Assembly: GCF_025947185.1 (NCBI RefSeq)
Contig: NZ_CP110001.1
Span: 4,216,001 to 4,280,000, forward strand
Length of the DNA stretch: 64,000 nt
Source: Flavobacterium sp. N2038
Lineage (GTDB): Bacteria; Bacteroidota; Bacteroidia; Flavobacteriales; Flavobacteriaceae
Direction: 5' to 3'
This document shows, piece after piece, positions 42,501 to 63,878 of the stretch. The notes under the pieces are model-generated. The model searched no databases, had not been told where the DNA came from, and saw only the letters and a list, made by a program, of their open reading frames with translations. A program made the position numbers and the translations under genes. Positions within the stretch are counted from its first letter, which is position 1. Each line of letters opens with the position of its first letter.

Positions 42501-42521
42501 AGAAAGTTTAAGACAAATATG

Positions 42522-42589
42522 TTTTGCCACAGATTTCACAGATTCACCCAGATTAAAAATCATTACAATTCTTTTAATCTGTGGCAAAA
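42522..42589. repeat. 14-bp inverted repeat between the attenuator and ilvA
   Basis: TTTTGCCACAGATT (42522-42535) and AATCTGTGGCAAAA (42576-42589) are perfect reverse complements around a 40-nt loop. GCCACAGATT ends of this kind look like an interspersed intergenic repeat of the same style as the element at 47685-47801. It ends 18 nt ahead of the ilvA start, where the hairpin could affect translation. Confidence 0.6.
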
Positions 42590-42607
42590 AAATAAAAACA
42601 AAACACC

Positions 42608-46920: not shown

Positions 46921-46995
46921 AATCTCGCAAAGACGCAGAGTCGCAAAGTTTTTACTTCATAAGTTTGCTTTGCGACTCTGCGTCTTTGCGAGATT
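46921..46995. mobile_element. 75-bp gene-less element with 28-bp perfect terminal inverted repeats
   Basis: Positions 46921-46948 (starting AATCTCGCAAAG) and 46968-46995 (ending CTTTGCGAGATT) are exact reverse complements around a 19-nt loop. The same 28-bp ends bound the 612-bp GxxExxY element at 60621-61232. This copy has no gene and looks like a non-autonomous, MITE-like derivative. It also lies between the convergent phhA and DUF4230 genes, where its hairpin could end transcription. Confidence 0.75.
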
Positions 46996-58862: not shown

Positions 58863-60608
58863 ATGAAATTACTATATTCTTATATAATCAAACATAAAAT
58901 GCTTTTGTTTTTTGCTTTGATTATGGCCTCTATAAACATTTGTTTCAGTTTGTCAGACTCTATTATTACGGGTAAATTAATGCAGGACTGTGGTGTTGGA
59001 CTGCATAAATATGACGGAAATGCAGCCGGATTTATCAAATCGTTGTCTTTCTGGCTTGGTCTTTCACTTGGAGCGGCAATGATTTCCAGAATTACCAAAA
59101 ACTTTCAGGATTATTTTACCAATATTGTAATTCAGAGAACGGGTGCCCAAATGTATACAGATGGTATTAAAAAATCGCTCGATTTGCCTTATGCTGAATT
59201 TGAAGATCAGCGAAGTGGTGAAACTTTAAGCAAACTAACCAAAGTACGATCTGATTCTGAAAAATTAATCACACTTTCTATTTCACTAATTTTCCAAACC
59301 ATTATCGGATTCATCTTCGTGATTCTTTATGTGGCGAGAATTGATTTTCGGATTTCACTTATCTTTTTAATTACGGCGCCAATTATTGCTTTGGTAAGTT
59401 CTTATTTAGGTAAAAAAATTAAAGTGGTTTCTAAAAAAATTGTAAATCAAACGAATGCTTTGGCAGGCTCAACAACCGAAAGTTTGCGAAATATTGAACT
59501 TGTAAAAAGCCTTGGTTTAACCTATCAGGAAGAAAAGCGTCTGAACTTAAATACGTTTAAAATTTTACATCTTGAACTGGAAAAAGTTCGCTACATACGA
59601 AGTTTAAGTTTTATTCAGGGAACAACGGTTCACTTTTTAAGAACCTGCGTAGTTTTTACTTTATATTATTTCTTGTTTGGAGGAAAAATTATAGTAGGTG
59701 ATTTATTGACGATGGTATTCTTTACTTTCTTCATTTTTGGCCCATTGCAGGAACTTGGAAACTTTATCATTACAGTAAATGAAACCAAAGTTTCAATGGA
59801 AAATTTCAGAGTACTTCTGAATGCTCCGAAAGAATTTCGTCCTAAAAATCCAAAACATGTTGGAGCAATTCAGTCTTTATTGTTTTCAAATGTGAGTTTC
59901 AAGCATAAAACGGCCAAATTTAAAGCTGTTGAGAACATCAATTTCGAAATCAAGCAAGGACAGACTGTTGCCTTTGTTGGTCCGTCTGGTTCAGGAAAAA
60001 CTACTTTGGTAAAACTATTAGTTGGCTTGTATACCCCGGCCGAAGGTCAGGTTCTTTATAATGACATTGATTCGACCGAAATTGATTTACTGGATCTTAG
60101 AAAACAATTGGGTTTTGTAACTCAGGATGCTCAATTATTTTCGGGAACAATTCGTGAAAATCTGTTATTTGTAAAACCAAATGCAACCGATGAAGATATT
60201 TATGACGCTCTGAAAAGAGCCAGTTGCGAAAAACTCCTAAAACGAGCCGAAGATGGTTTAAACACAACAATTGGCGAAGGCGGAATTAAGGTTTCCGGTG
60301 GAGAGAAACAACGATTATCTATTGCGAGAGCAATTTTAAGAAATCCAAATTTATTGATTTTCGATGAGGCAACATCCGCTTTGGATTCTATTACCGAAGA
60401 AGAAATCAACGCTACAATCCGAAATATCTCAGATAAAAACCGAATCACAGTTTTAATCGCACACCGTTTATCAACTGTTATGCACGCTGACAGAATTTTT
60501 GTTTTAGAACAAGGTAAAATCATCGAGCAAGGTAAACACGAGGACTTAATCGTGGAGAAAGGACTATATTATGCTATGTGGCGCCAGCAGATTGGGGAGC
60601 GTAAGTAG
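58863..60608 (+). CDS. ABC transporter, fused permease and ATP-binding protein
   Basis: The 581-aa half-transporter has six transmembrane segments in residues about 1-310 (LLFFALIMASINICF; LGLSLGAAMISRI; LIFQTIIGFIFVILYVARIDFRISLIFLITAPIIALVSSYLG). A nucleotide-binding domain follows: Walker A GPSGSGKTTLVKLL, Q-loop VTQDAQLFSGTIRENL, signature KVSGGEKQRLSIARAIL, Walker B LLIFDEATSALD and switch HRLSTV. It resembles MsbA-like exporters that act as homodimers. The substrate, possibly a lipid or drug, is unknown. The 28-bp inverted-repeat element begins 12 nt after its stop. Confidence 0.92.
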   Translation: MKLLYSYIIKHKMLLFFALIMASINICFSLSDSIITGKLMQDCGVGLHKYDGNAAGFIKSLSFWLGLSLGAAMISRITKNFQDYFTNIVIQRTGAQMYTDGIKKSLDLPYAEFEDQRSGETLSKLTKVRSDSEKLITLSISLIFQTIIGFIFVILYVARIDFRISLIFLITAPIIALVSSYLGKKIKVVSKKIVNQTNALAGSTTESLRNIELVKSLGLTYQEEKRLNLNTFKILHLELEKVRYIRSLSFIQGTTVHFLRTCVVFTLYYFLFGGKIIVGDLLTMVFFTFFIFGPLQELGNFIITVNETKVSMENFRVLLNAPKEFRPKNPKHVGAIQSLLFSNVSFKHKTAKFKAVENINFEIKQGQTVAFVGPSGSGKTTLVKLLVGLYTPAEGQVLYNDIDSTEIDLLDLRKQLGFVTQDAQLFSGTIRENLLFVKPNATDEDIYDALKRASCEKLLKRAEDGLNTTIGEGGIKVSGGEKQRLSIARAILRNPNLLIFDEATSALDSITEEEINATIRNISDKNRITVLIAHRLSTVMHADRIFVLEQGKIIEQGKHEDLIVEKGLYYAMWRQQIGERK

Positions 60609-60620
60609 ATGCGCGTAAAG

Positions 60621-61232
60621 AATCTCGCAAAGACGCAGAGTCGCAAAGTTTTTTTTAAGCTTTGCGACTCTGCTTTTTTATTTAAGTTTTTTAAAGGCTT
60701 TATTAAAGATTTGAAACTACTCTTTTAATTCCAAATTTGATAATTGGCACGTTAAAGTTAATCAGTAAGCCTAACTTCATTTTTGTGATTTTAAGATACG
60801 TTAAAACTTGTTTTGCATGTATATCTGTCAATTGTTCAATGGATTTAATTTCTAGAATTACTTTATTCTCAACTATTAAATCTGCTCGAAATCCAATATC
60901 CAGATTTATTTGGTCCCAAATTACAGGTAACGTTTTTTGCCTTTCTACATTTAATCCTCTTTTAGTTAATTCATGAAACAAAATTGCTTCATAAACAGAT
61001 TCTAATAATCCAGGACCTAATTTTACATGTATTTTATAACAAACATCAACCACAACAGCTGAAATTTCATTCTCACTCATTTTTACAAAATTAAAGTATA
61101 AACTTACAAAAATAAAATTTAAAAGCTTTGCACCTCTGCGACTTTGCTAGATTAAAACGTCTTCAAATTAACTTAAAAAAAAAAGTCGCAAAGCTTAAAA
61201 AAAACTTTGCGACTCTGCGTCTTTGCGAGATT
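60621..61232. mobile_element. 612-bp unit with 28-bp terminal inverted repeats carrying a GxxExxY gene
   Basis: The left end 60621-60648 (starting AATCTCGCAAAG) and the right end 61205-61232 (ending CTTTGCGAGATT) are exact reverse complements over 28 bp. Each end forms its own hairpin with inner copies: 60635-60648 with 60660-60673 (14 bp, followed by T6), and AGTCGCAAAG (61184-61193) with CTTTGCGACT (61205-61214). A degenerate copy lies at 61135-61153. The same ends occur at 46921-46995. No clear target-site duplication is seen. Confidence 0.65.
60703..61080 (-). CDS. GxxExxY protein (PD-(D/E)XK nuclease-like fold)
   Basis: The 125-aa protein has the namesake GPGLLESVYEAILFHELTKRGL. Its central part, GFRADLIVENKVILEIKSIEQL, contains D...ExK in the arrangement of the PD-(D/E)XK nuclease active site. 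The C-terminal part (HAKQVLTYLKITKMKLGLLINFNVPIIKFGIKR) completes the family pattern. Function is unknown; nuclease activity is predicted from the fold, not shown. It is the only gene inside the inverted-repeat unit at 60621-61232, and the terminal repeats lie 55-150 nt from its ends. Involvement with that repeat is my inference. Confidence 0.85.
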   Translation of the reverse strand: MSENEISAVVVDVCYKIHVKLGPGLLESVYEAILFHELTKRGLNVERQKTLPVIWDQINLDIGFRADLIVENKVILEIKSIEQLTDIHAKQVLTYLKITKMKLGLLINFNVPIIKFGIKRVVSNL

Positions 61233-61238
61233 AAAAAA

Positions 61239-63878
61239 TTACTTCACGAAATCTACAGCCTTAGCCAAAGCCTCAGCAATTCCGTCAACGTTTTTACCTC
61301 CTGCAGTTGCGAAGAAAGGCTGTCCGCCTCCTCCACCTTGGATATATTTTCCTAATTCGCGAACAACTTGTCCAGCATTTAAGTTTTTCCCTGCTACAAT
61401 TTCTTTAGAGATATAGCACGTTAACATTGGTTTTCCTTCGTGAGCTGTAGCAAAAACTACAAACAGATTATGATAAGCATTACCCAATTCGTAAGCTAAA
61501 TCTTTTGCTCCATCTGGATTTAAATCCACTTGTTTTGCTAAAAACTGAACTCCATTGATTTCCTGTAACTCTTTAGCTAAATCACCTTTCATATTTTTAG
61601 CTTTATCTTTCAATAAAACTTCCAATTGTTTTTTCAATTGTGCATTTTCATCTTGCAATGCCTGAATTGCTTTTACAGGATCCTGAGCATTTTTAAGTGC
61701 TTCTTTAATTTCGGTAAAAGCAACTGCCTGTGATTCAAAATATTCTTTAGCCGCTTCACTTGTAATTGCTTCAATTCTTCTAATTCCAGATGCAACCGCA
61801 CCCTCTGAAACAATTTTAAAGTGCCAGATATCAGAAGTATTAGCAACGTGAGTTCCTCCACATAATTCGACAGAATCACCAAATTTGATTGTACGGACTA
61901 AATCTCCATATTTCTCTCCAAATAAAGCTATTGCTCCATCTTCAAGCGCCTGATCTTTTGGGATTGCTCTTTTTTCGATTAGTGGTAAACTCTCACGAAT
62001 TCTCGCATTTACAAAGTTTTCTACTTCCAGTAATTCCTCATCAGAAACTTTAGAGAAATGAGAAAAATCAAAACGCAATGAAGCATTACGAACCATAGAT
62101 CCTTTTTGCTCAATATGTGTTCCTAAGATTTTACGTAAGCCCTGGTGCAATAAATGCGTAGCCGAGTGATTTGACGACGTTTTAGCTCTTTGCAAAGCAT
62201 CTACAACAGCATTAAAAGTTCCAGTAAGATTTTCTGGTAACGATTTTGCTAAATGTATCGTTTGATTGTTTTCTTTTTTAGTATCAATAATATAAATGAT
62301 ATCTCCGTTTTGAGCTTCTAAGTATCCTTTATCTCCAGTTTGTCCTCCGCTTTCTCCGTAAAATGGAGTTGCATTGAAAACTAACTGAAAAATTTCTCCA
62401 TCTTTTGCGCTTTCAACTCTTCTGTACTTCGTAATTTTTACCTGTTGTGATAATCTGTCGTAACCAACAAATTCCTGAATATCATCTTCTATAATAACAT
62501 TCCAGTCTCCAGCCGTTACTTTTGATGCAGCACGAGATCTTTCTTTTTGTAATTGCAGTTGTTCCTGAAATCCTTTTTCATCCAATTTCAATCCTTTTTC
62601 AGAAAGAATCAAAGCAGTTAAATCGATTGGGAATCCATAAGTATCATACAGTTCAAATGCTTTTTTACCATCGATTGTATCTCCTGCATTATTTAAAATT
62701 ACAGCATCTAAAAGAATTAATCCCTGATCTAATGTTCTCAAGAATGAATTTTCTTCTTCACGAATAACATTTGAACAAAGTGCTTTCTGAGTTCTGATTT
62801 CCGGGAAAGAATCTCCCATTTGCTCACTTAAAGTTTCTACCAATTTATAGATAAAAGCTTCTTTGGTACCTAAGAAAGTAAATCCGTAACGAATAGCACG
62901 ACGTAAAATTCTACGAATTACATATCCTGCTCCTGTATTAGATGGCAATTGTCCGTCAGCAATAGCAAAAGCTACAGCACGAACGTGATCTGCAACTACA
63001 CGAATCGCGATATTCATTTTATTTTGTTCATCACTAATGTTTGTTACTTCATTAGGTGTATACTTTGCTCCGGTAATCGTTTCAATTTCTCTAATTAAAG
63101 GCATGAAAACATCCGTATCATAGTTTGATGTTTTTCCTTGTAATGCCATGCACAAACGCTCAAATCCCATTCCGGTATCAACGTGCTGTGCAGGAAGTTT
63201 CTCAAGTGACCCATCTGCTTTACGGTTGAATTCCATAAATACGTTATTCCAGATTTCAACAACCTGAGCATTATCACCATTAACTTCTCCTTTTCCAGGT
63301 TTCAGCGCTTTTTCTTCTTCAGAACGTAAATCAACGTGAATTTCAGAACAAGGTCCGCAAGGCCCCTGATCTCCCATTTCCCAGAAATTATCTTTTTTAT
63401 TTCCTAAAACAATTCGGTCTTCGTCGATTAACGTTTTCCAGATATCCCAAGCTTCCTGGTCAAAAGGAACATTATCTTCTTTGCTTCCTTCAAAAACAGA
63501 AACGTAAAGATTTTCTTTTGGAATTTTATAAACTTCTGTCAATAATTCCCAAGCCCAGTTGATTGCTTCTTTTTTGAAGTAATCACCAAAAGACCAGTTT
63601 CCTAACATCTCAAACATAGTATGGTGGTACGTATCAATACCAACCTCCTCAAGATCATTATGTTTACCTGAAACACGAAGACATTTTTGCGTATCGGCTA
63701 TCCTTTTACTTTTTGGAGTTCCGTTTCCTAAGAAAAATTCTTTAAACTGGGCCATACCCGAGTTATTGAACATTAAGGTTGGGTCATCTTTAAGTACAAT
63801 AGGAGCCGAAGGAACAATAGTATGCCCTTTACTCTCAAAAAAATCTAAAAATTGTTTACGTACGTCTTGTGATTTCAT
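61239..63878 (-). CDS. alaS: Alanyl-tRNA synthetase
   Basis: AlaRS charges tRNA-Ala and clears mischarged Ser and Gly. The 879-aa protein has the class II catalytic core ([65 protein letters not shown]), then [17 protein letters not shown]. An editing domain follows, with [16 protein letters not shown] and [12 protein letters not shown] (the zinc-binding H-x3-H and C-x3-H motifs), and then a C-Ala domain ([43 protein letters not shown]). The stop is 6 nt from the GxxExxY repeat unit, so that hairpin probably serves as its terminator. Confidence 0.98.

Follow-up and report, generated by a model that had tools for sequence, protein, structure and literature searches.

We analysed a 64,000-nucleotide stretch of the genome of Flavobacterium sp. 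N2038 (contig NZ_CP110001.1, positions 4,216,001 to 4,280,000; hereafter the window), part of a 4.67-Mb single-contig genome, in which a gene of the GxxExxY protein family lies between exact 28-nt inverted repeats and two convergent neighbours. The gene and its repeats constitute a real and general unit, which recurs across bacteria, and genomes rich in gene-less repeat arrays of this kind nearly always have a GxxExxY gene.

The GxxExxY gene of the window and its arms

The outer arms of the element are identical as inverted repeats at 28 of 28 bases (60621-60648 and 61205-61232), and a 75-bp palindrome elsewhere in the window (46921-46995) carries the same 28-mer at each end without a gene. 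Both observations had been made in a first-pass annotation of the letters alone, and its proposal that the short copy is a gene-less relative of the full element is likewise supported. A 24-base core of the arm, with up to three mismatches, has four copies in the window and none in 100 shuffles, and the 28-mer, with the same tolerance, is found at 15 places genome-wide against 0 for a reversed-pattern control. The hairpins noticed earlier near each end consist of a stem and a T-run facing the neighbouring gene, the right one being the weaker. As single-stranded DNA, the 75-bp solo copy folds at -36.1 kcal/mol (z -11.8). For the left end the value is -19.1 kcal/mol (z -6.1), and for the right end it is -11.7 kcal/mol (z -2.1), which 7 of 200 shuffles equal. 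A scan for terminator-like structures returned three sites, two of which are the element ends, against a mean of 0.5 (standard deviation 0.7) in shuffles. Rfam returned three matches up to E 1, all far under gathering scores. A second gene-less palindrome, at 42522-42591, belongs to another word family, and its right arm matches, at 94.6% over 37 nt, an arm that flanks a different GxxExxY gene in the same genome (G000:C1:4332636-4332980). No target-site duplication was seen at either of two elements of the window. The coordinates are collected in Table 1.

Table 1. Features of the GxxExxY element and its surroundings, in window positions
Feature	Positions	Strand	Remarks
Left outer arm	60621..60648	+	28 nt, words TCGCAAAG-ACGCAGAG-TCGCAAAG
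Right outer arm	61205..61232	-	exact inverted copy of the left arm
Extended left inverted repeat	60621..60688	+	68 nt, 91% complementary to 61165-61232
Extended right inverted repeat	61165..61232	-	
GxxExxY gene	60703..61080	-	125 aa, predicted PD-(D/E)XK Cas4-like nuclease
Left subterminal hairpin with T-run	60635..60673	+	terminator-like, faces the ABC transporter gene
Right subterminal hairpin with T-run	61182..61216	-	terminator-like, faces alaS; less stable fold than the left hairpin
Diverged extra arm copy	61121..61157	-	within the right end, 86% to 61200-61236
Gene-less palindrome (solo)	46921..46995	no strand	75 bp, same family as the 28-nt arms
Gene-less palindrome, second family	42522..42591	no strand	GCCACAGATT words
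Left neighbour, convergent	58863..60608	+	ABC transporter gene, as named from its sequence
Right neighbour, convergent	61239..63878	-	alaS, as named from its sequence

The protein encoded by the open reading frame (ORF) between the arms scores 146.4 bits with TIGR04256 (GxxExxY; cut-off 35) and 139.3 bits with PF13366 (PDDEXK_3; cut-off 22), in agreement with its earlier placement in the PD-(D/E)XK group, and the nuclease-like D...ExK motif recognised at that stage corresponds to D67, E77 and K79. Across 43 proteins of the genus E27, D67, E77, K79 and Y95 are invariant, and Q91 is kept in at least 90%; D, ExK and QxxxY are the catalytic motifs of Cas4/RecB-like nucleases of the PD-(D/E)XK type. 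The modelled protein has the fold features of a Cas4/RecB-like PD-(D/E)XK nuclease, with restriction-enzyme-like fold matches and with its catalytic residues conserved; the gene likely encodes a DNA-cutting enzyme. Purifying selection acts on it, since the orthologue in a related genome (G008) is 95.2% identical in protein and 85.2% in gene DNA.

PF13366 is the sole Pfam family matched by the window protein, with no HUH Y1 and no DDE transposase family; by sequence, the best match in the PDB has an E value of 0.089 and is unrelated. None of the PADLOC defence families was matched, and PHROG gave a single match, weak and partial (E 7e-5), to an entry labelled 'CRISPR/Cas system associated'. The family is large, with at least 7,999 homologues in one search. 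Among the open-licence PubMed Central (PMC) papers searched, GxxExxY is named in two, in passing each time, and PF13366 in one, and titles and abstract openings disclosed no description of a pairing between GxxExxY genes and inverted word arrays. The excerpts consulted report that PF13366 is expanded in Arctic microalgae and that a GxxExxY gene occurs in an algal virus genome (PMC9756366, PMC12085832).

Recurrence within the genome, the genus and other phyla

The genome carries eight GxxExxY genes. Seven of them are flanked by clear inverted arrays of short imperfect words, with a different word for each gene. The word is CGCAAAG/CGCAGAG at the window gene, and CACAGATT, AACCGCAAGG-TTCGCAAAGG, CGCAGATT, CACAGAG, CACGAATT and ATATAAG are found beside others. 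When the left flank was locally aligned with the reverse complement of the right flank (the inverted-repeat score), seven of the eight genes scored between 36 and 111. GxxExxY genes lying away from the repeat had been named beforehand as an observation that would count against a joint unit, and the other seven genes are indeed not close to the 28-mer; six of the seven, however, have clear arms of their own. The 28-mer is just one of many arm families. In the downstream flank of one of these genes (L018), part of the 3' end of the gene upstream recurs on the other side of the element, as though insertion had duplicated some of that neighbour.

The same layout was then scored for 77 Flavobacterium genes from 77 loci (8 from this genome, 29 returned and 40 fetched; locus L056 gave no gene and one locus holds two). 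The set was drawn from the top-ranked matches, many of them at shared sites, and therefore consists of strong family members and is no random draw. The median inverted-repeat score is 41; the 87 control ORFs have a median of 21 (95th percentile 27.7, 99th percentile 47.6, top score 51). Scores of at least 35, the 95th percentile of 400 mismatched flank pairs, are reached by 51 of the 77 genes, and 17 exceed 53.1, the mismatched pairs' 99th percentile and our strictest threshold, which no control ORF exceeds.

Arms and proteins vary together. The genus set holds 76 distinct genes in 19 sites (L065 and L084 are one gene, counted once), and arm similarity rises with protein identity also across sites (rho 0.37 with one gene for each of the 19 sites; reached by 0 of 2000 permutations, with 20 random draws giving 0.21-0.50). 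The arm family of the window recurs at two other sites (L080, L103), where the proteins are about 70% identical to that of the window (L016), and in one relative (L101) two 83%-identical copies adjoin successive genes of one sugar-nucleotide cluster.

Inverted arrays were read on both sides of the gene at 16 of 20 further Bacteroidota loci, some of which represent the same site in different genomes; some arrays fill the narrow gap that separates a stop codon from the following start codon. For other phyla, the best 80 of at least 568 confirmed candidates were taken, 79 of which had scorable flank pairs. A score of at least 30 was found at 43 of the 79 loci; 670 windows taken within these loci and 1000 mismatched pairs reached it in 1.3% and 9.8% of cases, respectively. 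A score of at least 40 was found at 28 loci, compared with 0.15% and 1.8%. According to record titles, loci scoring at least 30 come from eleven phylum-level groups: Pseudomonadota, Verrucomicrobiota, Chloroflexota, Desulfobacterota, Acidobacteriota, Planctomycetota, Gemmatimonadota, Cyanobacteriota, KSB1, SAR324 and Bacteroidota. All 11 Sphingomonas-titled records among L191-L204 score under 30, and a twelfth, L234, scores 40, although arms can be seen by eye in the Sphingomonas plasmid relative, which is located between fabD and fabG. Inverted arrays are visible by eye in five of eight plasmid relatives. On plasmid 1 of Gemmatirosa kalamazoonensis (L153), a full word-array palindrome lies on either side of a GxxExxY gene whose match falls in two pieces, so that its frame may be broken.

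Gene-less arrays and their turnover at intergenic sites

CRCNRAG-type arrays and GxxExxY genes were counted in 395 Bacteroidota genomes, a genome being considered array-rich if it held at least four arrays and at least three times the number of a reversed control. A GxxExxY gene is present in 82 of the 86 array-rich genomes and in 104 of the 309 others (p 3e-27). Family-stratified shuffles reached 82 in 0 of 20,000 cases (mean 66.8), a procedure that controls relatedness within families in part only. Outside one large, nearly gene-free family (f32), the number of genes also correlates with the number of arrays (rho 0.60). The arms of the GxxExxY genes themselves inflate the array counts; once two arrays are subtracted for each gene, 50 of the 186 carriers are still array-rich, against 4 of the 209 non-carriers.

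Two further searches concern single arm families. The 24-mer, with up to two mismatches, occurs in 109 of 299 genus genomes, with up to 67 copies per genome on the forward and reverse strands together (G224). Among 101 of the genus genomes it was found in 33 of 78 with the gene and in 0 of the 20 listed without it, three more gene-free genomes being unlisted. Solo copies of each gene's own arm family were sought in 400 kb of sampled sequence plus the window, which gave 27 matches for seven gene-present families, nine matches for nine gene-absent families and one for the reversed control; two gene-present families had 0 matches, one gene-absent family had four, and some places were matched by both. 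The comparison, which left out the L022 family and two absent families because their inverted-repeat scores were too low, points tentatively in the expected direction. The scattered gene-less copies suggest a nuclease-and-repeat system that spreads between genes.

Comparison of orthologous sites shows replacement among arm families. At the junction between the ABC transporter gene and alaS, 30 loci were taken as best matches from the 299 genomes searched. The gene with CGCAAAG arms is present at 19 of them, and in one of these (L176) the left end carries a CTAAG array. The remaining 11 lack the gene and have a CTAAG-word array at one or both ends. A nuclease belonging to the CTAAG family was not found at these 11 loci (L180-L190). 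The intergenic stretches that their CTAAG arrays enclose contain terminators or other genes.

The site of another gene of this genome (L018) was compared at 28 loci. Twelve have the gene, and the other 16 have a short inverted array from either of two further families. Of 28 loci at the 75-bp palindrome's site, 27 were readable; five have the palindrome, four have its right arm alone and the rest hold other arrays or repeats. At two of them (L286, L287) the word array is adjoined by a stretch of about 1.3 kb that resembles an insertion sequence. Of five relatives compared at position 42505, four have a palindrome of the CACGAATT type and one (G053) has nothing. These site readings, with families swapped and some of them nested, indicate that arrays turn over at fixed intergenic places. 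They also account for the outcome of the empty-site comparison suggested earlier: a polymorphic insertion with precise ends was not demonstrated among orthologous sites, because the gene-less sites that were read nearly all hold arrays of other families.

The two arms of one element show at most a trace of concerted evolution. At the 19 gene-bearing loci of the ABC-alaS junction, left and right arms agree at 25.6 of 28 positions within a genome and at 25.2 between genomes (permutation p 0.009); the signal is weak, since the right arms of different species are equally alike (25.7).

Explanations of the unit and comparison with known systems

The explanation that we favour, with about an even chance of being right, is a widespread intergenic nuclease/repeat element, in which a GxxExxY gene sits between inverted word arrays and the gene-less palindromes are its non-autonomous relatives. 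Our best guess on the mechanism is copying through nuclease-induced breaks. The nuclease would recognise its own word array, as a folded single strand or as a duplex, and would cut there or at array-like intergenic sites, after which repair of the break might copy the array, with or without the gene, into the cut. Such a mechanism would account for the location between genes, the lack of target duplication, the families nested and swapped at one site, and the terminator-like ends, with which an insertion behind a stop codon may be tolerable.

Several observations weigh against this explanation. The eighth gene of the genome (L022) is at background, with an inverted-repeat score of 20, and is included in the third of the genus genes (26 of 77) that score under 35; only 17 of the 77 pass the strictest threshold. 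Among loci from other phyla, 36 of 79 score under 30, and three of the eight plasmid relatives have direct-repeat copies and not inverted ones. Of the 20 Bacteroidota loci, L348, L349 and L360 have arrays on a single side, and the copies at L362 are direct. In G004 the cognate palindrome lies entirely upstream of the gene and does not surround it. More than half of the gene-carrying Bacteroidota genomes (104 of 186) are not array-rich under the CRCNRAG pattern, which misses other word families; several of the non-rich gene-positive genomes that were read have other words. As regards mobility, GxxExxY is near-absent from plasmids (8 of 72,556 records) and was found in none of 50,697 phage records, the sole near-clean empty site (G053 at 42505) may be a deletion, and no target duplication was visible at the orthologous sites read. 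Moreover, 107 of the 112 gene pairs with at least 80% protein identity share a site. The initial idea of gene and repeat as one mobile unit is supported as regards the recurring unit and not as regards active transposition.

Among the alternatives, the gene might encode a domesticated host nuclease for processing hairpins or junctions at the ends of genes, the arrays being bidirectional terminators that it needs or restrains, with nothing selfish involved. We regard this as unlikely, because word families differ from gene to gene within one genome and swap at one site between species, and because presence is patchy (78 of 101 genus genomes and 186 of 395 genomes of the phylum).

It is improbable, in our view, that another transposase, for instance a Y1 HUH enzyme of the IS200/RAYT type, moves the arrays and that GxxExxY is a passenger between two copies. 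Such enzymes are at hand: in a control of 79 genomes from three families, Y1_Tnp genes occur in 68, with four in the genome of the window, and their presence is linked to arrays (41 of 68 against 1 of 11, p 0.002; p 0.04 within GxxExxY carriers), which also tells against the element as we propose it. HUH enzymes with terminal inverted repeats that differ per gene are, in addition, described in the portion consulted of PMC3733652 (TIRYTs). The link of arrays to Y1 is nevertheless weaker than that to GxxExxY (p 0.002 against 6e-7), and among genomes with Y1 the array-rich ones are still linked to GxxExxY (41 of 58 against 0 of 10, p 3e-5). One genome (G516) has 37 array matches and six GxxExxY genes with no Y1_Tnp match, and a passenger is unlikely to be one gene family in eleven phylum-level groups.

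An ordinary, vertically inherited gene beside neutral arrays, produced by slippage and gene conversion in AT-rich spacers that both happen to share, would fit the mostly vertical inheritance at fixed sites and the building of the arms from short tandem words. We hold this to be quite improbable, as control ORFs and windows rarely have such arms, and as it is opposed by the genome-wide association, its dose relation (rho 0.60 outside f32) and the 24-mer copies, up to 67 per genome in G224. A defence or decoy system, in which the nuclease restricts incoming DNA and the arrays mark self or act as bait, agrees with the restriction-enzyme-like fold matches but is very improbable given the lack of any PADLOC match, a sole PHROG match that is weak and partial, neighbours that are an ABC transporter gene and alaS, and annotated plasmid relatives that mostly adjoin ordinary genes.

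Returning to the nuclease/repeat element, a broader version of it appears possible to us, though we put it forward tentatively: GxxExxY proteins may be the enzymes of pan-bacterial intergenic elements for whose spread a Cas4-like nuclease suffices, with no transposase or recombinase of their own and with one word per nuclease lineage; their inverted-array copying would repeatedly have rewritten intergenic DNA, terminators included. The link to arrays gives the little-studied GxxExxY family a testable substrate, and a common, unexplained type of intergenic repeat gains a candidate enzyme.

Insertion sequences with miniature inverted-repeat transposable elements comprise an autonomous copy with terminal inverted repeats and short non-autonomous palindromes. 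The GxxExxY element likewise has a full copy and short palindromes but differs in having no DDE transposase, no target duplication seen and terminal repeats that differ per copy. Homing endonuclease genes spread by break repair without a transposase of their own, as the GxxExxY nuclease gene could; its sites, however, are intergenic and not within a target gene or intron, and gene-less copies are common. Cas4 holds an Fe-S cluster through cysteines, whereas the GxxExxY protein has only one cysteine and hence no Cas4-type cluster; no Cas1 was recognised by eye in the ORFs listed, and the unit is far smaller. Casposons use Cas1 and carry PolB. They resemble the present case as mobile units tied to a Cas-type nuclease and inverted repeats, according to the excerpt consulted of PMC4046053, whereas the GxxExxY element is a single 125-aa gene.

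The closest layout is that of repetitive extragenic palindromes (REPs) and their associated tyrosine transposases (RAYTs), described in the parts consulted of PMC8266576 and PMC3733652 as a small HUH enzyme gene with cognate, co-evolved palindromic repeats and many gene-less copies, mostly intergenic. As the first-pass annotation had supposed, the layout is similar, a GxxExxY gene being flanked by its repeats and gene-less copies being dispersed between genes, and the nuclease is of another kind: GxxExxY is a PD-(D/E)XK protein and lacks the HUH/Y1 enzyme that helps to define REP/RAYT, its arms are degenerate word arrays, and several families coexist in one genome. By eye, neither strand of the 28-mer has the GTAG tag, and CGTC lies inside its reverse complement, not at the end. 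The TIRYTs/TIRtrons of PMC3733652, in the portion consulted, also have flanking inverted repeats that vary between the genes of one genome, some in dispersed families, but are HUH tyrosine transposases and not PD-(D/E)XK nucleases. The layout is therefore of a known kind, since both REP/RAYT and TIRYTs pair enzymes with such repeats, while these papers, in the parts consulted, describe neither such an enzyme nor arms built as word arrays nor this spread over phyla (PMC3733652, PMC8266576). Our best reading is that the system works like REP/RAYT without being a member, and that it is undescribed in the open-licence PMC literature searched. If the nuclease drives copying, the system would resemble REP/RAYT but rest on another nuclease fold, with a presence in many phyla, and it would alter the view of bacterial intergenic evolution and terminator turnover.

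The excerpt of PMC3733652 also describes CGTC-tagged REPs, intergenic palindromes that likewise occur in Bacteroidetes and for which its authors found no dedicated transposase. They are set apart by description, with stems of 8-9 bp and an unpaired CGTC end, in contrast to GxxExxY arms of 28 nt made of words. A second dispersed palindromic repeat (TTTGTCATTTCGACGAAGGAGAAATC...) lies between word arrays in Flavobacterium intergenic regions at several of L181-L190 and L277-L290, and its TGTC start recalls the CGTC/TGTC-tagged REPs of that same excerpt.
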